From: Neisseria sicca
GTDB lineage: Bacteria > Pseudomonadota > Gammaproteobacteria > Burkholderiales > Neisseriaceae
DNA length: 64,000 bases
Assembly: GCF_003044565.1 (NCBI RefSeq)
Contig: NZ_POXG01000001.1
Span: 620,001 to 684,000 of the forward strand
Reading direction: 5' to 3'
In this document: in pieces, positions 11,335-37,209 of the stretch
Numbering within the stretch: position 1 is the first letter of the stretch
Layout of the letters: each line of letters begins with the position of its first letter
Position numbers and translations under genes: made by a program
The notes under the pieces: generated by a model
What the model was told of the DNA's origin: nothing
Seen by the model: the letters and a program-made list of their open reading frames with translations, nothing else
Databases searched by the model: none

Positions 11335-12447
11335 TCAACCCTGCCTCTCCAACATCCCTTGAAACCGCAATAATGCCAGCCATAAGAATCCTACGCCGAT
11401 ACAGCCCATGATCAGCATATGCCCCCACACGATTTCAATCCCCGCGCCGCGGAACAGGATGTCTTGCGAAAATTTGACGAACTGCGTCAGCGGCCAATAT
11501 TCGCTGATCAGTTGCGCCGCGTACGGCATGTTGCTGCGCGGGGATGCGCCGCCGGCAAACAGGTTCATCACGATATACACCGGCAGCATCAGCATTCCGA
11601 ACTGTCCCATCGTCGATGCGAAGGTGGCAATCATGATGCCCAGCGACGCTACCGAAAACAGGAACAACGCCAGCCCCACCGCATAAAGCGGCACCGAGCC
11701 GATGAGCGGCACGCCTATGCTCAAATGCACGATAAACCAAAGCGACGACAACGCCGCCACCCAAATCACAGCGGCATTTGCCAGCACTTTGCCCATCATC
11801 AATTCGAACGCATTGACCGGCATCACCAGCAAATGCTCGATTGTGCCGCGTTCGCGTTCGCGGATAACCGCCGCCCCCGTCAATAAAATCAGCAACATAC
11901 ACGACATCGAGCCGATTTGCGAAGTCGGCATGAACCACGCGCTCTCGCCGTTGGGATTGTAATAAGTATTGATGACGGGATTGATTAACTCCGGTCGCGT
12001 CACGCCGGTGAATTCGTAAATTTCGCGGTTGATAATTTGCGAAAGATACGACGCACCCACCCCCGCCTGCGTCATCGACGTCGCATCAACCAAAAGCTGC
12101 AAATCAGGATTGCGCCCCGCCGCCATGTCGCGCTGAAAATTGGGCGGTACTTCCAAAATAAAGGTGAACTCGCCTTTATCCATCAATTCGTCCGAATCTT
12201 CGCGCCGCACGTCCTCTACCGGTTTGAAAAACGGATGCTGCACGGCATCGCGGATACGCATGGACAAAACCGAACGGTCTTGGTCGATGATGCCGACAGT
12301 GGCGTTTTTCAAATCCGCGCCCACCTGCGCCATCTGATAAATCGTGGCGGTAAAGATATACCCAATCAGCACCATCAGCACCGGATCAGTCAGCACACTG
12401 CGGAACTCTTTGAGCATCAGGGTCAGAATGTTTTTCAGGGTACGCAT
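11335..12447 (-). CDS. ABC-2 type transporter permease (YhhJ-like)
   Basis: A 370-residue inner-membrane permease of the ABC-2 exporter family. One N-terminal TM segment (DPVLMVLIGYIFTATIYQM) is followed by a periplasmic domain of about 150 residues (VGIIDQDRSVLSMRIRDAV), then five TM segments. The INREIYEFTGV and REREXGTIEHLLVMP blocks are typical of the YhiI-RbbA-YhhJ system. The likely ATPase partner is the large RbbA-like protein encoded at 15182-18577, on the same strand but separated by four other genes. The expected HlyD-type adaptor is absent. A ribosome-binding AGGAA precedes the ATG. Confidence 0.85.
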   Translation of the reverse strand: MRTLKNILTLMLKEFRSVLTDPVLMVLIGYIFTATIYQMAQVGADLKNATVGIIDQDRSVLSMRIRDAVQHPFFKPVEDVRREDSDELMDKGEFTFILEVPPNFQRDMAAGRNPDLQLLVDATSMTQAGVGASYLSQIINREIYEFTGVTRPELINPVINTYYNPNGESAWFMPTSQIGSMSCMLLILLTGAAVIRERERGTIEHLLVMPVNAFELMMGKVLANAAVIWVAALSSLWFIVHLSIGVPLIGSVPLYAVGLALFLFSVASLGIMIATFASTMGQFGMLMLPVYIVMNLFAGGASPRSNMPYAAQLISEYWPLTQFVKFSQDILFRGAGIEIVWGHMLIMGCIGVGFLWLALLRFQGMLERQG

Positions 12448-15181: not shown

Positions 15182-18100
15182 TCACTTCTCCTGTTTCTTC
15201 AACAACACGCACGCCAGAATCAGGCTGGTGGCGGCAAAAGCGGCGATGGCGGCGTATTCATGGAGCAGGTCGGCGGTGTGCAGCCCTTTGGTGAAGCTGC
15301 CGACGCTGACGGTGTAGTACCACGACGACGGGAAGGTTTTGCCGATAATCAGCGCGCCACCTTCCATGGTGGACAGCGGGTAGAGAAAGCCGGAATAGGT
15401 TTGCGCGGGGATCATAGTGATGATGGCGGTGGCGAAGATGGCGGCAAGCTGGGAGCGCACGAAGCAGGAAATCAAAAGCCCCAGCGCGGTGGTGGCGGAC
15501 ACCATCAAGAGCGTGCCGATGGCGAGTCCGGCAAACGAGCCTTTGAGCGGCACGCCGAACAAGTAAATAATCATCAGCATCATGGCGGCGAAGTTGACCA
15601 TGCCGACGGCGATATAGGGAAGCTGTTTGCCGATCAGATATTGCGCCACGGCGGCAGGCGATGCGTAGAAATTGGCGATAGAGCCGATTTCGCGTTCGCG
15701 CACCACGCCGACCGCCGACATCATGGCGGGGATCATCATCAACACCAGCATCATCACGCCCGGAGCGATGGCGTTAATACTGTCGAAATCCTGATTGTAC
15801 ATAAAGCGCGGTTCGATGCCGGCGGGGGCTTTGAGCGAAACGGGCAGCCCGCTTTCGGCGATGCGGTCTTTAGTGTAGGCGGTAATCAGGCTGCCGATGT
15901 AGCCGCGGATATTGGTGGCGTTAAACGGCATGGAGCCGTCCACATAAAAACCGACTTCGGGTTTGAGCCCGCGTGCCAAATCGCGCCCGAAACCGCTCGG
16001 AATATCGATGACCAATATGGCACCGGAGCTTTTGAGCACGGTGTCGATTTCGGCTTCGGACTGTATCGGCGGCTGTTGGAGGAAGTAGCGCGAACCATCG
16101 AAATATTCGACCAGCTCGCGGCTGGCGGCAGTTTGGTCGCGGTCGTAAACGGCGAATTTCAGATTCCGCACGTCAAACGAAATCCCCCATGATACCGACG
16201 CCATGATAATCAACGGGCCGAACACGGCGAAAAACAGGCGGATTTTGTCGCGCAAAAGCTCTTTGGCTTCGCGGCGGGCGAAGGTCCAAATCATGGAAAA
16301 ACGGTATTTGAAATTTTGGGTGTCGGGCGTTACCGACGGAATTTCAGACGGCCTCGGATGGTGTTTTTCAGGGTCGTCTGAAAACTGCGAATGCCCGTTA
16401 TCCGATGCCATTTCCGCGTGCGTGGCTTGCGCCACCGTAGCCATAGGTTGGGTCGAGACCCAACTTGCCGAATCCGAAAGCATTGTTGGGTCTTGACCCA
16501 ACCTACCCTGTTCAAAATACACGCCGTCGCCGTCTGTATTTTGACGAAACTCGCTTTGTTCACTTTCAGACGACCTTGCGTTCTGTTCATACTGGTCGTC
16601 TGAAAAATCAGCTGCCGCAGCCGTAGGTTGGGTCGAGACCCAACTTGCCGAATCTGAAGGAATCGTTGGGGCTTGACCCAACCTACCTTTTTCGGAATGC
16701 ACGCCATCTGCGTTTTGGCGAAACTCGCTTTGTTCGTTTTCAGACGACGTTGCGTTTTGTTTATACAGGTCGTCTGAAAAATCAGCCACCGTAGCCGTAG
16801 GTTGGGTCGAGACCCAACTTGTCGAATCCGAAAGCATTGTTCGGTCTTGACCCAACCTACCCCGTTCGAAATGCACACCATCTGTATTTTGACGAAACTC
16901 GCTTTGCTCACTTTCAGACGACTTTGCGTTCTGTTCATACTGGTCGTCTGAAAAATCAGCCGCCTTAGCCGTAGGTTGGGTCGAGACCCACCTTGTCGAA
17001 TCCGAAAGCATTGTTGGGTCTTGACCCAACCTACCTTGTTGGGAATGCCCATTATCCGATTCCGCCTCAATCAGATACTGCACAAACGCTTCTTCCAAAT
17101 CCGGCGCATTCTGCCTTGCCGCCAGTTCGGCGGGCGTGCCCACCGCCAGCACGCGGCCTTTGTGCATAAAGGAAATGCGGTCGCAGCGGGCGGCTTCGTT
17201 CATAAAGTGGGTCGAAACGAAAATGGTGATTTTGTCTTCGCGGGAGAGTTTCAGAAGATGCCGCCAGAACATATCGCGCGCGGCGGGATCGACCCCCGAA
17301 GTCGGTTCGTCCAGAATCAATACTTCAGGGTGATGCAAGCAGGCGGCGGCAAGTTGCAGGCGTTGGCGGATGCCCAGCGGCAGCGATGCGGGCGCGGTGT
17401 CGGCAACGTCCGCCAAATCAAACTGTTGCAGGGCCTCTTCCACCGCCGCCGCGCCTTTAGCGCCCATCTGGTAGAGTCTGGCGTGCAAATCCAAATTGCG
17501 GCGCACGCTCAACTCTTCATACAGCGAAAACGCCTGCGACATATAGCCGACGCGCATTTTCGTGTCCAAGCCGCCCGCGTCTATCGGCTTGCCCAACAGC
17601 GTGGCGTCGCCTTCGGTCGCTTCCAACAAACCGGTCAGCATTTTCATGGTGGTGGACTTGCCGCAGCCGTTGCTGCCGAGAAAGCCGAAAATCTCGCCTT
17701 TTTGAATGGTAAAGCTGACATGATCCACAGCAGTGAAATCGCCGAAACGCTTGGTCAGCCCGTGCGCTTCCATCGCGGGCGGCGCATTGGGCTCGGGGAC
17801 GAACGGCGTAATGTCCAAACCACCCGAACCCTGCTGTTTCTCCGGCGGCAGCATTTTGACGTAGGCCTCTTCCAACACGTCGGTGCCATAACCCGCCAGC
17901 ACATCGGCAGTGGGCTTGTTTTCCAGCAGCCTGCCCGCGTCCATCGCCAGCAGCCGCTCGAAACGCTGCGCCTCTTCAATATAGGCGGTCGCCACAATCA
18001 CGGTCATGCCCGCGTGTTCCCGCCGCAAATCGTCCACCAACGCCCAAAACTGGCGGCGCGACAAAGGATCCACGCCCGTGGTCGGTTCGTCCAGAATCAG

Positions 18101-18577
18101 CAAATCCGGGCTGTGTACCAGCGCGCAGCACAAACTCAGCTTCTGCTTCATCCCGCCCGATAGCTTGCCCGCCGCCCTGCCGGAAAACGGCGCAAGGCGG
18201 GTCGCCTCCATCAGCCGCGCAATCTGCCGCGTGCGTTCCTGCCCGTCCAAACCAAACAGCCGCGCGTGAAAATCGATATTCTCATACACCGACAACGTAG
18301 GATACAGGTTGCGCCCCAAACCCTGCGGCATAAAGGCGATGCGGTGCGACAAGTCCCGCCGCACGTCCTTGTCCGCCATATCGCCGCCCAACACTTCCAC
18401 CCGTCCGTCCTGAATCACCTTCACCCCCGCCATCAGCGAGAGCAACGTCGATTTACCCACGCCGTCCGGCCCGATCAAACCGACCGTCGCGCCTTTCGGA
18501 ATGTCCAGCGACACATCGTCAAGCGCAAGGGTCTTGCCGTAGCGGTGGGAAAGGTTTTGGATGGAAACGGTATTCAT
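15182..18577 (-). CDS. RbbA-like ABC exporter: two ATPase domains fused to an ABC-2 permease, with an in-frame repeat-array linker
   Basis: 1131 residues; E. coli RbbA has about 911. Order: ATPase 1 (Walker A GPDGVGKST near 34, signature LSGGMKQKL, Walker B LLILDEPTTGVDP); ATPase 2 (Walker A GSNGCGKST near 300, LILDEPTSGVDP); a linker of about 250 residues (505-755); then an ABC-2 membrane domain (FARREAKELLRDKIRLFF to the end, six hydrophobic segments). The second ATPase has a weakened signature (LPLGIRQRLQL). The linker is low-complexity and comes from four tandem copies of an intergenic-type repeat kept in frame. Likely exports a hydrophobic substrate or drug with the YhhJ-like permease at 11335; the RbbA ribosome role in E. 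coli is not assumed. ATG at 18577, with only weak upstream pairing. Confidence 0.88.
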   Translation of the reverse strand: MNTVSIQNLSHRYGKTLALDDVSLDIPKGATVGLIGPDGVGKSTLLSLMAGVKVIQDGRVEVLGGDMADKDVRRDLSHRIAFMPQGLGRNLYPTLSVYENIDFHARLFGLDGQERTRQIARLMEATRLAPFSGRAAGKLSGGMKQKLSLCCALVHSPDLLILDEPTTGVDPLSRRQFWALVDDLRREHAGMTVIVATAYIEEAQRFERLLAMDAGRLLENKPTADVLAGYGTDVLEEAYVKMLPPEKQQGSGGLDITPFVPEPNAPPAMEAHGLTKRFGDFTAVDHVSFTIQKGEIFGFLGSNGCGKSTTMKMLTGLLEATEGDATLLGKPIDAGGLDTKMRVGYMSQAFSLYEELSVRRNLDLHARLYQMGAKGAAAVEEALQQFDLADVADTAPASLPLGIRQRLQLAAACLHHPEVLILDEPTSGVDPAARDMFWRHLLKLSREDKITIFVSTHFMNEAARCDRISFMHKGRVLAVGTPAELAARQNAPDLEEAFVQYLIEAESDNGHSQQGRLGQDPTMLSDSTRWVSTQPTAKAADFSDDQYEQNAKSSESEQSEFRQNTDGVHFERGRLGQDRTMLSDSTSWVSTQPTATVADFSDDLYKQNATSSENEQSEFRQNADGVHSEKGRLGQAPTIPSDSASWVSTQPTAAAADFSDDQYEQNARSSESEQSEFRQNTDGDGVYFEQGRLGQDPTMLSDSASWVSTQPMATVAQATHAEMASDNGHSQFSDDPEKHHPRPSEIPSVTPDTQNFKYRFSMIWTFARREAKELLRDKIRLFFAVFGPLIIMASVSWGISFDVRNLKFAVYDRDQTAASRELVEYFDGSRYFLQQPPIQSEAEIDTVLKSSGAILVIDIPSGFGRDLARGLKPEVGFYVDGSMPFNATNIRGYIGSLITAYTKDRIAESGLPVSLKAPAGIEPRFMYNQDFDSINAIAPGVMMLVLMMIPAMMSAVGVVREREIGSIANFYASPAAVAQYLIGKQLPYIAVGMVNFAAMMLMIIYLFGVPLKGSFAGLAIGTLLMVSATTALGLLISCFVRSQLAAIFATAIITMIPAQTYSGFLYPLSTMEGGALIIGKTFPSSWYYTVSVGSFTKGLHTADLLHEYAAIAAFAATSLILACVLLKKQEK
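16383..17065 (-). repeat. Four-copy tandem array of palindromic and DUS repeats inside the exporter gene
   Basis: The motif GTAGGTTGGGTCGAGACCCA begins at about 16443 (with ATAG), 16623, 16797 and 16971. Spacings are 180, 174 and 174 bases, all multiples of three. Each unit also has the inverse half (GACCCAACCTACC) and uptake sequences read as SDD or SSE. The array is flanked by a near-identical direct repeat encoding SDNGHSQ (about 16385-16407 and 17040-17062). The whole array is translated without a stop. Confidence 0.92.
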
Positions 18578-27333: not shown

Positions 27334-29367
27334 GTGGGGAATACCTTTAAGTCAATCCTGCTATGGGTTGCTTTGTGCGTCGGTCTGATGGCCGCGTTCA
27401 ACGCACTGACCAGCAAGCAGGAAAACAAGCAGCAAATCGAATACTCTCAATTTATCCAACAGGTAAACAACGGTGAAGTGAGCAACGTCAAAATCGAAGG
27501 CTCCGCTATCATCGGTTATCTGATTAAAGGCGAACGCACCGATAAAACCTCTTTCTTTACCAATGCGCCTTTAGACGATAATTTGGTCAAAACGCTTCTT
27601 GACAACAAAGTCCGCGTAAACGTTATACCTGAAGAAAAACCGAGTATCCTTACCAGCCTGTTTTTCAGCCTGCTACCGGTATTGCTGCTGATTGGCGCAT
27701 GGTTCTACTTCATGCGTATGCAAAGCGGCGGCGGCGGTAAAGGCGGCGCATTCTCTTTTGGTAAAAGCCGCGCCCGCCTGATGGACAAAGAAACCAATAA
27801 AGTTACCTTTGCCGATGTTGCCGGTTGTGATGAAGTAAAAGAAGAAGTACAAGAAATCGTTGATTATCTGAAATCCCCCACCCGCTACCAAAGCTTGGGC
27901 GGTCGCGTTCCGCACGGCATTTTGCTGGCGGGCAGCCCAGGTACGGGTAAGACTTTGCTGGCAAAAGCCATCGCAGGCGAAGCCGGTGTGCCGTTCTTCA
28001 GCATTTCAGGTTCTGACTTTGTTGAAATGTTCGTCGGCGTCGGTGCAAGCCGCGTGCGCGATATGTTTGAACAAGCGAAGAAAAACGCCCCTTGTATCAT
28101 TTTTATTGACGAAATCGACGCCGTCGGCCGCCAACGTGGCGCAGGCTTAGGCGGCAGCAACGACGAACGCGAACAAACCTTGAACCAGCTTTTGGTCGAG
28201 ATGGACGGTTTTGAAAGCAATCATACCGTTATCGTCATCGCCGCAACCAACCGTCCCGACGTACTGGATCCAGCATTGCAACGCCCCGGCCGCTTCGACC
28301 GTCAGGTTGTTGTTCCGCTGCCCGATATCCGCGGTCGCGAACAAATCCTGAAAGTCCATGTGAAAAAAGTACCTTTGGACGAATCCGTAGATTTGTCATC
28401 ATTGGCACGCGGCACACCCGGCTTCTCCGGCGCAGATCTGGCGAACTTGGTCAACGAAGCCGCCCTGTTTGCAGGCCGCCGCAATAAAATCAAAGTTGAC
28501 CAAAGCGATTTTGAAGATGCCAAAGACAAAATCTATATGGGTCCCGAACGCCGCAGCATGGTGATGCACGAAGACGAAAAACGTGCGACTGCCTACCATG
28601 AAGCAGGTCATGCGATTGTTGCCGAAAGTCTGCCGTTTACCGACCCTGTTCACAAAGTGACCATCATGCCGCGCGGTCGTGCGCTCGGTTTGACTTGGCA
28701 GCTTCCTGAACGCGACCGTATCAGCATGTATAAAGACCAAATGCTGAGCCAATTGTCGATTCTGTTTGGCGGACGCATTGCCGAAGACATCTTCGTCGGC
28801 CGTATTTCTACCGGCGCATCCAACGATTTCGAACGTGCCACCCAAATGGCGCGCGAAATGGTTACCCGTTACGGCATGAGCGATAAAATGGGCGTGATGG
28901 TTTATACGGAAAACGAAGACGAAGTATTCTTGGGACGCAGCATTACCCGTTCTCAAAATATTTCCGAAAAAACCCAACAAGACATCGACGCAGAAATTCG
29001 CCGCATCTTGGATGAGCAGTATCAAGTGGCTTACAAAATCCTTGATGAAAACCGCGACAAGATGGAAATCATGTGTAAAGCCTTGATGGATTGGGAAACC
29101 ATAGACCGCGATCAAGTGCTGGAAATTATGGAAGGCAAACAACCTAGCCCGCCTAAAGATTACAGCTACAATCTGCGTCAGGACAATCCGGAACAACCTG
29201 AAACCGAGTCGGCAGCGCAAACTCCGGAAGCAATCAATCAACATGAACCTGCTTCCACAGAAACCGCTCAAGAGTCATCGGATAAAGCTCAAGAGTCATC
29301 AGAAACCGCTCAAGCGCCATCTGATAAAACCCAAGAGTCATCTGATAAACCTGAAGATCAAGCTTAA
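27334..29367 (+). CDS. ftsH: ATP-dependent zinc metalloprotease FtsH
   Basis: Membrane-anchored AAA protease that degrades misassembled membrane proteins and regulators. 677 residues. GTG start, preceded by GGAG 9-10 bases upstream. Two TM segments flank a periplasmic domain ([39 protein letters not shown]). The AAA domain has Walker [14 protein letters not shown] near 200 and Walker [13 protein letters not shown]. The M41 protease zinc motif HEAGH is near residue 422. The C-terminal 50 residues are low complexity, built from imperfect Q-E-S-S-D-K-type units. Probably co-transcribed with rlmE, and terminated by a GC hairpin. Confidence 0.98.
29266..29355 (+). repeat. Imperfect short tandem repeats encoding the FtsH tail
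   Basis: Units of the form GCTCAAGAGTCATCGGATAA, with variants ending CAGAAACC or CTGATAAA, recur four to five times in frame and yield S-S-D/E-x-A-Q-E repeats. They fall after the last conserved FtsH block. Copy number may vary between strains. Confidence 0.7.
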
Positions 29368-29590: not shown

Positions 29591-32500
29591 ATGCCCGACA
29601 ACGCCCCCATTCCAGCCTTCGACCCCCTAAGTATCCCCATATCGGGCACCAATCTGATTGAAGCCTCTGCCGGTACGGGCAAAACCTACGGCATTGCAGC
29701 GTTGTTCACACGCTTGGTTGTGCTTGAGCAGATGCCGGTTGAAAGTATTTTGACCGTTACTTTTACCAAAGCGGCGACGGCGGAATTAAAAACCCGTTTG
29801 CGCGCGCGTTTGGACGAAGTGTTGCAAGCCTTAGAAAGTGTGGAGGATACGGACAATCTTTCAGACGACCTCGCAGCATATTGCCGAGACAATCATCCGG
29901 GCGATGTGTTTCTAACCGGTTTGCTCAAACAGGCATTGGCTCAAGAAAGTCGGGGGCGGCTGATTGTCCGCCTCAAAGCCGCCATCGGACAATTCGACAA
30001 CGCCGCGATTTATACCATTCACGGTTTCTGCCAACGCATTTTGCGCGATTATGCATTTTTGTGCCGCGCGCCTATGGATGTCGAATTGACCGAAGACAAC
30101 CGTGACCGCCTGTTGATTCCTGCCCAAGACTTTTGGCGCGACCGCATCGTCAATCATCCCGTTTTAGCGAAGTTGGTATTCCAACGCCGCCAAACGCCGC
30201 AAACCATGCTGGTGGCAATACAAAAGTTCGTCAGCCGTCCGTATTTGGTTTTCAGACGACCCGAAGCAGACCTAGTCGCCGCGCAGGAAAACTTTCGGAA
30301 AACATGGGAAAAAGTGCGTTCCAAACTGGACGCTTTGGAAGAAACATTCTGGCGCATCCGTCCGATATTAAATGGGCAATCCTATCAAGAAAAAACATTC
30401 AAAACCGTCTTTCTCGAACTCCAATCCGCCTCCCAATCCGATACCCTTCCTTCTTTTAGCAAAACGACGGCAGAAAAGCTGCCTATGTTTGCCATAGAAG
30501 CTTTAGCATCCAAAGTCAAAAAGGGCAATACTCCCGATGCTGCCGCCTTTGCCGATTTGCAGATATTGGCGAATCTCGGCGCAGATTCGGCTGCCATTGC
30601 GCAAGCCGAAGAAGAGACGCTTACCCTGCTCCATCTTGACCTGCTCGACCATCTTAATGCCAGTCTGAACGAACAGAAAAAATCCAAGCGCGAACGCGGT
30701 TTCGACGATTTGCTGCTTGATGTTTATGACGCATTAACCGACAACCCGCAGGCCGATTCACTGGCTCAGGCGGTGGCGCAAAACTGGCGCATCGCCTTGA
30801 TTGACGAATTTCAAGACACCGATCCGCTGCAATACGAGATCTTCCGAAAAATCTTCATCAGCCAAAACAAGCCTTTATTCCTAGTCGGCGACCCGAAACA
30901 AGCCATTTACAGCTTTCGCGGCGCCGACATTTACGCCTATCTGCAAGCCGCAGCCGACGCGCAACACAGCTACACGCTGGCGACCAATTACCGCAGCCAT
31001 GCCAAGCTGATTAACGGCATAGGCGCATTGTTCCGCTGCAAAAACCGTCCTTTCGTCTTGGACGGCATAGACTATACCGAAGTCGGCGCCGCACGTTCCG
31101 AAAGCCGGCTTTCGCCGCCGCGCACCGCCATACAGATACGCTGGCTCAACGGCAAAGACGACGAAGTGCTCAACAAAGACATCTTGCGCCGCCGTGCATC
31201 CGAATATTGCGCCGACGAAATCGCCCACACGCTCAACGAAGCTGCCGAAGGTCGTCTGAAATTCAAAGACAGACCAGTCGTTTCGGGCGATATTGCCGTC
31301 TTGGTCAGGACGTTTAACGAAGGCGTGATGGTGGCAAAAGCGCTGAAAACGCGCGGCATACAAAGCGTTTTGCTCTCAAGAGAATCGGTTTTCACCACGC
31401 CCGAAGCCCTCGCCCTTGCCGCGCTGTTGGATTATTGGCTCAATCCCGGACAAATCGGCTCTCTGCGCTTTGTCTTATCCGGCACATTGTTCGGCTACGA
31501 CGCGCAAGCCCTGTATCAACTCAACCGCAACGAAGCCGAATTATTAAACTGGATAAACACCTCCGCCGAATCCGTTGCCATTTGGCGGAAAAGCGGGATT
31601 TATGCCGCGCTGCAACACTTCTCCTCGTTGCACGGCATCGAAACCGGATTGCTTGCACGCGGCGACGAGCGCGGTCTCACCAATTTCCATCAGCTTTTAG
31701 AATGCCTCTCCGAAGAAGAAGGACAAAGCCTCAGCCCCGCCGCCCTGCATCAATGGCTCAACGACCAAATCAGCCTGGCGCAAGACCGCTCTGTCGGCGA
31801 ATCAGGACTGTTACGGCTTGAAAGCGATGAAGCACTGGTCAAAATCGTCACCATGCATGCCTCCAAAGGTTTGCAATATCCTTTGGTCTATTGCCCTTTC
31901 GTTTGGGACGCGAAAGACATGAAGCCCTCCGATTGGCAAATCCTCCACACCGCCGACCACACTACGGAACTGCTTGCCAAATCGCAACTCAACGATGAAG
32001 ACCGTATCCACCTTGCCGACGAAGAAATGGCGGAACGCCTACGCCTGCTGTACGTCGCGCTGACCCGCGCCGAAGAGCAGCTCGTCCTCCATGCCGCGCA
32101 TTGCGGCGATACCGCCGATTCCCCTTTCGCCTACCTGCTTGAAGGCAGCGCCGACAGCAATCGGGCGGATACCCGCCAAGCTTATGAACAAGAACGCAAA
32201 GCAAACAAAGCCCTAGGCGAGCTGCAAATGCTGAAAAACAACTGGCTGCGTTTCCTCAAAAATCCTCCCGAACATACCGACTTCAGCTTTTCCGAAGACG
32301 CGCCGCAACCCGCTGCCGCGCAAAACCGCCATCTTTCAGACGACCTCTATCAAGCCGCCGTTATCCCTGCCCGCGGATTTCAGTTCATCCGACATACCAG
32401 CTTTACCGGCCTCAGCCGCCAAGTCAAAACCCGAGACGACGAGCGCGAAGAATTACAACCCGCACTCGACCCCGCAGAAACCGCCGCCGAAACAGAAAGG

Positions 32501-33232
32501 TCGTCTGAAACCGCCCTCCCCGTTTCAGACGACCTCCCAAACACCGACATCCACCATTTCCCGCGCGGCGCCAACGCCGGCGTCTGCCTGCATGAAATGT
32601 TGGAAAAATTCGACTTTGCCCAAAGCACCGAAAGCCAAAGCAGCCTGATAGCCGAAACCTTAACCCGCTACGGCTTCGACCTGCTCTGGACAGATGCCGT
32701 CAAACAAATGCTCGACACCTGCCGCAAAACACGCCTTGTTGCACAAAGCCTGTCTGAAATCCCACCCGAGCGCCGCCTTCCGGAAATGGGATTTACCCTC
32801 TACACCGAAGACTTCAAACTCCATGACCTGCGCCGCTGGTTTGCCCGCGAAAACAGCTCACTGCCACCGGAATGTATCGAAGCCGCGGAAAGATTGGATT
32901 TCCAAGACGTACAAGGTTTTCTCAACGGCTTCATTGACATGGTCTGCCAAGATTCAGACGACCTCGTATGCATCATCGACTACAAATCCAACCATCTGGG
33001 CGACAGCGCCGAAGCCTATACGCAACAAGCCATGAACGAAGCCGTAGCAGAGCACCACTACTACCTGCAAGCGCTCATCTACGCCATCGCCGTAGCCCGC
33101 TATTTCAAACTGCGCGGCAAGCCGTTACCCAAACTCGCCATCCGATACCTCTTCCTGCGCGGATTGGACGGCACGGACAACGGCGTCTGGCAATGGGACT
33201 TGGATACCGAATCCTTGGCGCAATGGCTGTAA
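29591..33232 (+). CDS. recB: RecBCD helicase-nuclease beta subunit
   Basis: Exonuclease V beta subunit for double-strand-break repair and recombination during transformation. 1213 residues, family size. SF1A helicase motifs are present: Walker [12 protein letters not shown] (24-34), motif II region [19 protein letters not shown], motif [20 protein letters not shown], and later motifs [18 protein letters not shown] and [16 protein letters not shown]. The C-terminal nuclease domain has [20 protein letters not shown] and then KSN (catalytic D-x-D/K pattern). Between helicase and nuclease the linker translates a DUS hairpin (32498-32535; [16 protein letters not shown]). recC and recD are not nearby. 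The ribosome-binding site is weak. Terminates before a Correia element. Confidence 0.96.
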
Positions 33233-34389: not shown

Positions 34390-37209
34390 TTATTCAAATA
34401 AAACGTCTATTCCGTCTTCGCCCAACTCCAATTTTGCATGTTCAGGCATATGCCCTGCGGTTTGCTGCCATTGCAAAAAGCTTTGCGCGATAGCAGGCAT
34501 GACTTGGCGGTTGAGCAAATGGTCGATATTGCGTGCGCCGCTATCGCCGGTAGTGCAAGAATCAGCCAGAAGCGCTGCAAAATCTTCGCTGTAACTGAGG
34601 CGTGTTTGATGGGCTTCGTACAGTCGGTCAGCAATTTTGTCCAGCTTCAGTCTGACGATTTGAGCCAATGCCTCTTTTTCCAACGGACGATAAGGAACAA
34701 CCTGCATACGCGCCAACAGCGCGGCTTGGAAATGGTCTGTCAGTATCGGACGAATCGCTTCTGCCAACTCTTCCAGACTGAATTCAGGTGTTTCATCGGT
34801 TTCAACAGGGTCGTCTGAAACGCCGGCGTTTTCAGACGAGCCATCCGGCATTTGTGCAGAAAGTTCGACTTCAGTGTCCACAATCTGCTCTTGCGCGCTT
34901 TGCTCTTTACCCTCTTCCGCAACAGCTTCTTCTGTTTCTTCAGGCTCTTGCGGTTGCAGCAATTGGGTCAATTCGTTTGCACCCAAGTTTGACGTCATCA
35001 GGATAACGGTATTTTTGAAATCGATTTCCCGACCTTCGCCGTCACGCATCATGCCTTTATCGAAGACTTGGTAGAAAAGGTTGAGAATGTCTTTATGGGC
35101 TTTCTCGACTTCATCCAATAATACAACGCTGTAAGGTTTTTGACGTACTGCTTCGGTCAAAACGCCGCCTTCGCCATAACCGACATAACCCGGAGGCGAG
35201 CCTTTGAGTTGGGAAACGGTATGCGCTTCGCGGTATTCGGACAGGTTGATGGTAATCAGCGATTTTTCGCCGCCGAACAGCGCATCTGCCAAAGCCAGCG
35301 CCGTTTCTGTTTTACCTACGCCGGACGGACCGCTCAACAGAAATACGCCCAATGGGGAATCGTTGGTTTTTAAACCAGCTTTAGCGGCTCTCAAACTTTG
35401 CGCGATAGCATGAATGGCTTCACTTTGCCCAACCACGCGTTTCTCAAGCAGGCTTTCCAGTTGCAGCAGGTTTGCCAGTTCGTCTTTGAGAACGCTGCCT
35501 GCGGGGACGCCCGTCCAATCGGCAATAATATCGGCGATTACGGTCTCATCAACGCTGGTGAAAATCAACGGTTTGCCCGCGACAACGGCATCAAGCTGTT
35601 GCTGTTTCTCGGTCAGACTGTGTTGCGCGGCTTGTCGCTCTTCAGAAGTCAATTCTGTATTCTTGGCAGCTTCCATCAAGGATTGGATTTCATCCGCCAA
35701 TTGTTTTTCTTCCTGATATCGGCGGTTCATTTCTTCGCGCTCTTCATTCAATTGGGCAATCTCTTGCTCAACTTGTCGAATGTTATCTTGCTGCGAAGCA
35801 TTCAGACGACCTAATTGCTTGTCGGCATCCAATGCCTCCAGCTCGCGTTGCAGTGAAGAAATTTGGGCATCCATCAAACCGAAAATATGAGGCACGGTAT
35901 CCAAACTCATGCGGACGCGTGCGGCTGCCGTATCCAACAAATCTACGGCTTTGTCCGGCAGTTGGCGGCCGGTAATATATTTTCGGGAAAGTTGTACGGC
36001 TGCGATGACGGCGGAGTCCTGAATATGGACTTTATGGTAAGCGGCATAACGTTGCTTCAAACCGCGGAGCATGGTGAACGCAGCCTCATCATCGGGTTCG
36101 TCAACTTTGACCATTTGGAAACGGCGTTCCAACGCGGCGTCTTTTTCAAAGTATTGTTTGTATTCGCTCCAGGTTGTCGCTGCGATGGTACGCAATTCAC
36201 CCCGCGCCAAAGCCGGTTTTAAGAGGTTGGCTGCATCCGCGCCGCCTGCACTGTTTCCTGCACCGATTAACGTATGCGCTTCGTCGATGAATAATAAAAC
36301 GGGTTCTTCAGAATTCTGAACAGCCTCGATAACATTGCGCAGGCGTTGTTCAAATTCGCCCTTCACCCCCGCACCCGCTTGCAGAAGACCTAAGTCCAAC
36401 ACCAATACTTGGGTGTTTTCCAATATCTTAGGCACCTCGCCTGAAGCGATTTTCAATGCCAGACCTTCTACCAATGCAGTTTTACCGACACCCGGTTCGC
36501 CAACCAAAATAGGGTTGTTCTTACGGCGACGCGATAAAATATCCATCATTTGACGGATTTCAGTTTCACGTCCAAATACAGGGTCAATACCGCCCTGAGC
36601 GGCTTTTTCAGTCAAATTGACGGTAAAACGTGCAAGCGCATCGTTTTGTCCTGCTGTAGCGGTTTGTTGGGGTTTAGATTCCGCTGAAACTGTATGCTGA
36701 CCTTCTTCTGAAGCCGGCTGCGCAAATGTATTATTCTCACCTTCGATAGAAACTTCGTCCAACCAAGTTTTCAGACGACCTATCTGTGTTTCAGTCAGGC
36801 TTAATAAGGGCCATGCTTCCTGCGTCATCAGACGGTAAGGAGATTTCAGCAATGCCTGATATAGGAAAGCCGAACGGATTTCAGATGCACCTTCGTCACT
36901 TGCCAACAACCATGCATCCGACAATAAACTAATCAATGATTTAGACAAAGAAGGATTACCACGAACATTGCGTGGAAGTTTGTCCATCGTACTCAACAAA
37001 GGATTCCAAATATTTTCTAAATCAATTTCGTAACGCCTCAATAAGGCATTAACGTCTCCATCCCCTAGTTCGAGCAATTTGATAAATAAATGGTCAACCG
37101 TAATTTCGGCATGACCTCGTGTTTGACATAAGCCAGCTGCAGCTTCCATCGCCTGCTGACAATGCGTGTTCAGACGACGTAATAATAATGCTTGATCATG
37201 TGCAGACAT
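34390..37209 (-). CDS. clpV: T6SS sheath-recycling ATPase ClpV (TssH) with an acidic DUS-containing insert
   Basis: Hsp100/Clp-family AAA+ ATPase that unfolds contracted TssB/TssC sheaths. 939 residues. N-domain (1-150) with ARN-type repeats, then a low-complexity linker. D1 has Walker [11 protein letters not shown] and Walker [16 protein letters not shown]. The coiled-coil middle domain is around 430-560. D2 has Walker [13 protein letters not shown] and sensor [11 protein letters not shown]. After that comes a glutamate-rich insert of about 60 residues (755-815) that includes a translated uptake-sequence hairpin ([12 protein letters not shown]), then [19 protein letters not shown]. Typical ClpV proteins lack this insert. 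The T6SS assignment over ClpB rests on the neighbours. Last gene of the minus-strand tss operon; several uptake sequences lie within it. Confidence 0.93.
34808..34842. repeat. Translated DUS hairpin inside clpV
   Basis: GGGTCGTCTGAA and TTCAGACGAGCC face each other across an 11-base GC-rich loop. Read on the minus strand they encode [12 protein letters not shown] in the acidic insert of the D2 domain. Frame preserved. Confidence 0.85.

Follow-up and report, generated by a model that had tools for sequence, protein, structure and literature searches.

Palindromic repeats that are read in frame within bacterial genes have been described before. Open reading frames can carry GTAG and CGTC REPs in frame, singly, as dimers or in groups, with the larger REP-encoded regions spanning 43–82 amino acids, and the authors propose that flexible linkers or loops account for their toleration; tandem clusters of REPs with flanking DNA are also known, recB of X. 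campestris and X. oryzae carries REPs at about the same site, and dRS3 is a CGTC repeat of Neisseria (PMC3733652). The Rickettsia palindromic elements (RPE) are palindromic repeats lying in frame in functional genes (cited in PMC3733652), and REPINs are units of two inverted REPs, tandem REP clusters also existing (PMC3116915). DNA uptake sequences (DUS) favour the less conserved parts of core genes and one DUS frame contains a stop (PMC2397512, PMC2346458, PMC3630211), with no obvious frame preference in S. muelleri (PMC3630211). In short, publications already cover both REPs inside genes and DUS in permissive regions.

The locus described here, the linker between the ATPase and permease halves of Neisseria rbbA, departs from these systems as presented in the passages compared. 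Compared with the intragenic GTAG/CGTC REPs, the RbbA linker exceeds the outgroup median by about 220 aa, is mixed with DUS, and is one linker of many species; the parts of PMC3733652 compared name no case in Neisseria rbbA. It resembles the RPE in its in-frame palindromes, a likeness drawn by description only, and differs in that amplification together with DUS is not described for RPE in the parts of PMC3733652 compared. Whereas REPINs are extragenic and tied to RAYT genes (PMC3116915), the RbbA dimers are intragenic and the N. sicca genome has no RAYT match. Linker arrays, a single codon phase and reversed pairs are not among the features of coding DUS described in the passages compared from PMC2397512, PMC2346458 and PMC3630211, and where rcDUS outnumber DUS in N. 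meningitidis genes by 245 to 123 (PMC2346458), the RbbA linkers contain 33 rcDUS and 69 DUS. Open-access searches did not turn up an account of one linker being filled repeatedly, of its size or of its filters, and among the matches listed in open-access PMC no title or abstract start dealt with arrays of repeats in RbbA or with the codon phase of DUS in linkers. If the interpretation given below holds, intergenic repeats of several kinds have repeatedly become protein at one site of a conserved gene in two bacterial lineages far removed from each other, and there are recognisable rules as to which repeat readings survive. The site would behave as a tolerant landing place for mobile and uptake-signal DNA that has to remain readable as protein. 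It allows the conversion of non-coding DNA into disordered protein to be studied as a natural experiment, along with linker tolerance in an ABC ATPase/permease fusion and any part of DUS in interspecies domain shuffling.

The repeat array in the rbbA linker

The window, a stretch of 64,000 nucleotides from a Neisseria sicca genome (G000), contains the features listed in Table 1. By its domain content the gene is a predicted member of the RbbA family, a fused ATPase-ATPase-permease: its product scores 1370 bits against NF033858 (RbbA), for which the curated cut-off is 1050, and both halves lie in one chain, with PF00005 in two stretches and PF12698 in one, in the Pfam matches as in the predicted model. 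Members of the family have ribosome-stimulated ATPase activity, and the NCBIfam title is 'ribosome-associated ATPase/putative transporter RbbA', so that the exporter role named in the initial annotation is putative. The initial annotation's estimate of 220–250 residues for the linker is replaced by a somewhat higher value, 263 aa, from the alignment, by which linker ends were set for Neisseria rbbA, outgroups and hrpA alike. Linker residues 511–747 have a pLDDT below 50 and no secondary structure in the AlphaFold model; low values are expected there because the structure alignment took in 30 RbbA proteins, most with short linkers, and is thin across this region. Another ABC-2 permease gene (PF12698) lies at 11335–12447 on the minus strand, separated from rbbA by several unrelated genes; we presume that it may encode a YhhJ-like partner of RbbA.

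Table 1. Features of rbbA and of the repeats in its linker (window coordinates)
Feature	Position	Strand	Evidence
rbbA ORF, 1131 aa, ATPase-ATPase-linker-permease	15182-18577	minus	ORF call; NF033858 match
First ABC ATPase domain, best Pfam stretch, aa 19-167	18077-18523	minus	PF00005; pLDDT mostly about 90
Second ABC ATPase domain, about aa 268-500	17078-17776	minus	Pfam, NCBIfam, AlphaFold model
Inter-domain linker, 263 aa, aa 503-765, acidic (net -25)	16283-17071	minus	Alignment; AlphaFold
ABC-2 permease domain, aa 766-1131	15185-16282	minus	PF12698
Tandem array, about 3.5 units of 174 nt	16431-17056		Repeat comparison; TRF
GTAG REP head-to-head dimer (REPIN-like), closest to permease; outer tag reads ATAG	16443-16506		Repeats; folding
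GTAG REP dimer	16623-16686		Repeats; folding
GTAG REP dimer	16797-16860		Repeats; folding
GTAG REP dimer, closest to ATPase	16971-17034		Repeats; folding
Inverted DUS pair, one GCCGTCTGAA-type and one GTCGTCTGAA-type, beyond array	16342-16384		Repeats; linker DUS count
Inverted DUS pair, sense order rcDUS -> DUS, between units	16564-16606		Repeats; DUS pair orientation
Inverted DUS pair, sense order rcDUS -> DUS, between units	16738-16780		Repeats; DUS pair orientation
Inverted DUS pair, sense order rcDUS -> DUS, between units	16912-16954		Repeats; DUS pair orientation
Extended DUS repeat (GCGAAACTCGC-type stem adjoining DUS), dispersed in G000 genome	16711-16748		Repeat search
24-nt direct repeat, permease side	16386-16409		Repeat comparison, 88% identity to ATPase-side copy
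24-nt direct repeat, ATPase side	17040-17063		Repeat comparison, 88% identity to permease-side copy

The array itself, reported at the outset as four in-frame copies with spacings of 180, 174 and 174 nt and no stop, is confirmed, and what are apparently repeats of an intergenic type are read in frame within the linker of a predicted ABC ATPase/permease fusion. The four 98-nt units lie at 16431–16528, 16611–16708, 16785–16882 and 16959–17056, units 2–4 being 85–92% identical to the first, and TRF gives a score of 916 over 16431–17048 at a period of 174. Each unit is a head-to-head pair of GTAGGTTGGGTC-type palindromes, in which, as in a GTAG REP, the GTAG tag ends a palindrome of 20–40 bp (GTAGGTTGGGTCGAGACCCAAC); in all four the tags are outside and 20–24 nt separate the arms, as in a REPIN. 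We call the element REPIN-like only, because a search for the RAYT transposase (PF01797) at E 0.001 gave no match in G000, nor did it in G022, and any movement of the REPs would therefore need to be old or in trans, a point against the explanation favoured below. The GTAG REP is of low copy number in G000, with 20 matches at two or fewer mismatches, ten of them in rbbA. Among nine matches outside rbbA, six overlap no open frame of at least 90 aa and three overlap unverified frames of 93, 123 and 423 aa. Seven of the 13 exact GTAGGTTGGGTC tags in the genome fall inside rbbA, and a further REP dimer is present at C9:95531 (L017).

The DUS content of the linker is also high, with eight exact 10-mers (seven GTCGTCTGAA, one GCCGTCTGAA) against 1.15 expected at genome density (Poisson p 2.8e-5). 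The genome has 3836 copies of the core GTCGTCTGAA and 226 of GCCGTCTGAA, such that AG-mucDUS (AGGTCGTCTGAA) is the dominant dialect of the two whose 10-mer cores were counted; it is likewise dominant in N. mucosa ATCC 25996, N. sicca and N. macacae (PMC3630211), and the initial pointer to N. mucosa/N. sicca is plausible. A placement of the G000 genome near N. elongata was dropped, the closeness being limited to rbbA. Since the linker's other two sense frames contain 2 and 22 stops, its open reading is non-trivial. Pairwise comparisons among three units give 12, 23 and 30 differences on codon positions 1, 2 and 3, and 17 synonymous as against 35 changing codons, some of which are added by a six-base shift at the end of the third unit. 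The direct repeat flanking the array, which had been taken as a possible mark of insertion at one site, is present, but a target-site duplication is not supported, as kindred motifs recur in related linkers, whose own repeats encode SDDGHSE, SDDRHSE and SDNGHSQ; the direct repeat more likely represents a piece of an older unit. Elsewhere in the window, 29258–29357 is a tandem repeat of 21 nt in 4.4 copies.

Linker length and repeat content across genomes

A match to rbbA is present in 26 of 46 Neisseria genomes, and the frame is open over more than 900 aa in 24 of these, so that the frameshifting in relatives that would have spoken against the initial annotation is mostly not seen; as the 24 were chosen at this threshold, their openness is partly a matter of selection. 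Of the other two, G031 ends at a contig edge and G012 looks broken, its rbbA-like pieces falling in different frames. Two distant relatives (43–51%), G028 and another G034 locus, were left out. The 24 Neisseria linkers range from 48 to 288 aa with a median of 164, and those of 75 outgroup loci from 32 to 253 aa with a median of 43 (Mann-Whitney 1.4e-12, kinship ignored). The outgroup consists of 75 of the 77 loci L111–L187 (L133 and L142 lacking a single ORF) and takes in near-duplicate species as well as some Neisseriaceae from outside Neisseria. The rbbA frames of the other genera of this family are mostly 904–942 aa, with longer ones in G082 (1026 aa), G081 (991), G076 (961) and G058 (952) and partial ones in G050 (850) and G061 (654).

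Length also varies among close relatives. Six genomes whose rbbA flanks are 95–98% identical have linkers of 72, 155, 161, 163, 165 and 263 aa, and G022 has a single copy of the palindrome that is present four times in G000; the proposal that unit number alters linker length with the protein left unbroken is borne out. Conservation of the linker as protein in unrelated genera, which would have told against that proposal, is ruled out by the linker alignment, outgroups included. In Burkholderia sp. lig30 (L136) a 99-aa RbbA linker is composed of short T/A/E/G/D repeats, another expansion in the same place.

The repeats that occupy the site differ among species (Neisseria types were assigned by eye from linker DNA). 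Besides the GTAGGTTGGGTC dimers, four in G000 and one in G022, there are GTAGGGTGTG-type dimers in the linkers of G007, G010, G013, G019 and G026, a GTAGGCCAGGCTTCAGCCCGGC-type pair (GTAGGCCAGGC...GCCCGGC) in G008, CCCTCTCCCGC(G/A)GGAGAGGG in G011 and G034, and tandem DUS pairs in G038. The linker of G004 contains a ATTCCCGCCTGCGCGGGAAT palindrome (ATTCCCGCC...GGGAAT), which resembles dRS3. Four of the seven copies of GTAGGGTGTGTG in the G013 genome are inside rbbA. Outside Neisseria, the 253-aa RbbA linker of Cardiobacterium valvarum holds five GTAGGGTGGGCTTCAGCCCACC-type REPs in steps of 108, 108, 108 and 219, out of 104 matches with two or fewer mismatches in that genome. The phenomenon is broader than first proposed, extending to many repeats and many species, and the interpretation given in the initial annotation is partly supported.

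Selection, uptake sequences and competing explanations

Estimates of omega from 22 pairs in three groups are 0.02–0.17 in the ATPase half, 0.02–0.18 in the permease half and 0.30–0.83 in the linker. The flanks are under strong purifying selection and the linker is relaxed but not free; the gene is thus functional, and a linker omega below 1 allows for some function. The linkers contain 102 exact DUS where 13.3 are expected, and the remainder of these ORFs 16 where 74.6 are. Exact DUS are present in 23 of the 24 Neisseria RbbA linkers, the excess being weak in some (G043, p 0.15), and the linker without DUS (G029) has two GCCTGTCTGAA motifs that still read SE. The codon phase of the linker DUS is uniform (forward 69/69, reverse 33/33), giving the readings PSE, or SDG/SDD. 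In controls the phase is found in 13 of 27 DUS of other window ORFs and 18 of 31 in eight further loci, 31 of 58 together; the control ORFs are mechanical calls, some perhaps spurious, and the eight loci were picked for in-frame repeats and include the hrpA array. Counted by groups drawn by eye (12 forward, 10 reverse) the contrast is 22/22 against 31/58 (Fisher 2.9e-5), and the uniformity is partly inherited through tandem copies and shared ancestry. REP phase is not uniform, with GRLG in rbbA and VGWV in hrpA, which counts against a common reading filter. Read in the real frame, the 24 linkers have a net charge of 0 to -25; the two alternative sense frames would give +7 to +74. Elsewhere in the window, a RecB-like ORF (by eye; 29591–33229, plus strand) has seven in-frame DUS, some in seemingly poorly conserved stretches, and a ClpB/ClpV-like ORF (by eye; 34393–37209, minus strand) has four, one of which lies within an acidic insert (SSEN..SDD).

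Among close DUS pairs (gap up to 60) the orientations are RF 27, FR 1 and FF 2 in the linkers, and FR 21 and RF 4 elsewhere in the window. The eight further loci have FR 11 and RF 7, so that window and loci together (FR 32, RF 11) give a weaker contrast that is still significant; by group the linkers are 8:1, as against 4:21 (p 2e-4) or 11:32 (p 7e-4). Closely spaced inverted DUS work as terminators (PMC2397512), and FR is presumably the terminator orientation, because it is in excess and its hairpins are followed by T runs (e.g. L017). Between 15000 and 18800 there are seven terminator-like sites against 5.4 plus or minus 2.5 expected, and on this chance-level count and the pair orientation a terminator role for the array was rejected, with the caveat that it contains three weak sense-strand sites.

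The explanation that we regard as probable is that the RbbA linker acts as a sink for repeats that tolerates changes of length, with in-frame duplication enlarging it and a filter favouring readings that are open, acidic and non-terminating. It draws on the array, its recurrence across species, the different repeats at the same place, the selection on the flanks, the single DUS phase and the reversed pairs, all directly established. The ATPase and permease halves would need no fixed distance, leaving linker length almost free, and genomes with thousands of DUS and several REP families would repeatedly seed the linker with GTAG-type REP dimers, other palindromes and DUS pairs. We infer transposition and recombination as the routes, units multiplying or vanishing by recombination between repeats in frame-keeping steps. 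Retained insertions would be those that keep the frame open, that give a hydrophilic acidic reading (DUS as PSE or SDG/SDD) and whose DUS pairs are opposite to the genome's common close pairs, which are probably terminators; these filters would reflect selection and not shared ancestry, and the linker would have no specific function of its own. A point on the other side is that rbbA appears dispensable, with no match in 20 of the 46 Neisseria genomes and a seemingly broken copy in another, and the linker of a dispensable gene could be relaxed on that ground alone.

Other explanations account for parts of these data. Repeat number might set linker length and thereby adjust ATPase/permease coupling or assembly, as a contingency-type device. 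The one and four copies in the near relatives G022 and G000, and the range of 72–263 aa between nearly identical flanks, are as such a device would give, but the units are long and diverged, unlike fast-switching short repeats, the linker omega indicates relaxed constraint, and outgroup linkers are about 43 aa; we consider adaptive tuning very unlikely. The same low standing applies to a role at the RNA level, in which four hairpins at the domain boundary would pause ribosomes or regulate the mRNA. The palindromes do fold strongly, at -34.1 to -39.6 kcal/mol each (z -6.4 to -8.2), with z -17.8 for the whole array against 20 shuffles. However, REPs are palindromic by nature, six subflava-type linkers lack any close DUS pair, so that the hairpins are not conserved, and the terminator-like sites are at chance level, with only the three weak ones on the sense strand of the array.

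Selection for DNA uptake, with linker DUS raising the transformation of rbbA and REPs as passengers, would be consistent with the DUS excess in the linkers, and the muc-type DUS of the G013 linker, present despite a GCCGTCTGAA-rich genome, suggest transfer of rbbA between dialect groups. Yet it leaves the REPs and Cardiobacterium unexplained, DUS are scarcer than expected in the remainder of the gene, and DUS placement in permissive regions, as described in PMC2397512, is equally given by the sink model; an origin in uptake selection seems to us improbable. The N. sicca assembly comprises 16 contigs, which could raise the question of an assembly or annotation artefact, but long linkers recur in single-contig assemblies (G038, 288 aa; G045, 252 aa; G019, 161 aa), the units are different enough to be distinguished and conserved flanks align on both sides, making an artefact extremely unlikely.

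Linkers of hrpA and exchange between genomes

The hrpA linkers show a pattern that appears similar to that of the RbbA linkers. Among 30 Neisseria loci taken in, from 44 genomes with a match, hrpA linkers range from 39 to 466 aa (ends from one alignment, some of which may be off). In G000, an hrpA-like C-terminal ORF (L188:2544–5879, minus strand) contains three in-frame tandem units of 168 nt, with an extended DUS and a GTAG-like palindrome. The hrpA gene is seemingly split at L188:2544–9210 (minus strand) into an N-terminal ORF (named from motifs), a PF00884 sulfatase-family gene and then the rest. Reverse DUS in hrpA linkers are all in the SDG/SDD phase (27/27), and of the forward DUS 14 are in the PSE phase and 19, which sit at a shared boundary, in the GRL phase; this mixture counts against a general single-phase rule.

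Some linkers contain whole domains. The L214 hrpA linker has a complete GNAT domain (PF13673) and a domain of about 90 aa to which neither Pfam nor NCBIfam gave a name, and which is shared with the RbbA linker of G082 (L236), from another genus, at 43% identity over 95 aa (E 2e-22). This domain adjoins DUS-like AGGCAGCCTGAA or AGGCTACCTGAA, and in G082 the two such sites flanking it are read in different frames (FRQPEN, SGSLKTE). The hrpA linkers of L209, L211, L213, L216 and L217 resemble that of L214 by eye, with a GNAT domain in frame between repeats and in some the unnamed domain as well.

Signs of exchange come from G013, taken as N. elongata ATCC 25295, whose genome has 3298 copies of GCCGTCTGAA and 210 of GTCGTCTGAA and whose rbbA linker carries four DUS of the muc type and not a single GCCGTCTGAA. 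Its hrpA is 92–99% identical to that of G000 after the linker and 68–72% in two windows before it; as other genomes also give low values (74–89%) in the window just before the linker, only the other window is telling (72% against 87–98%). In G013 and G004 the parts of hrpA on either side of the linker have different histories, and breakpoints lie away from the linker in G005 and G020. These comparisons suggest that dialect groups have exchanged DNA, some of the breakpoints being close to linkers. General mosaicism of the rbbA halves is not borne out, third-position divergences correlating at 0.93, with the G002 and G006 comparisons standing out.

Neisseria multi-domain linkers might accordingly serve as frame-safe joints for natural transformation, at which units, domain halves and cassettes are shuffled, and uptake sequences in linkers would then help to shuffle domains. 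One DUS codon phase in rbbA linkers means that a crossover between DUS of the same orientation keeps the frame, and the domain common to RbbA and hrpA linkers, the GNAT domain and the hrpA half histories favour this reading. It is weakened by the two frames in G082, the concordant rbbA halves, the two hrpA phases and the breakpoints off the linker, and we hold it to be rather unlikely. A PAP2/phosphatase-like ORF (by eye) at L189:3626–5245 on the minus strand also carries an extended DUS repeat in frame, read in the GRLK phase.
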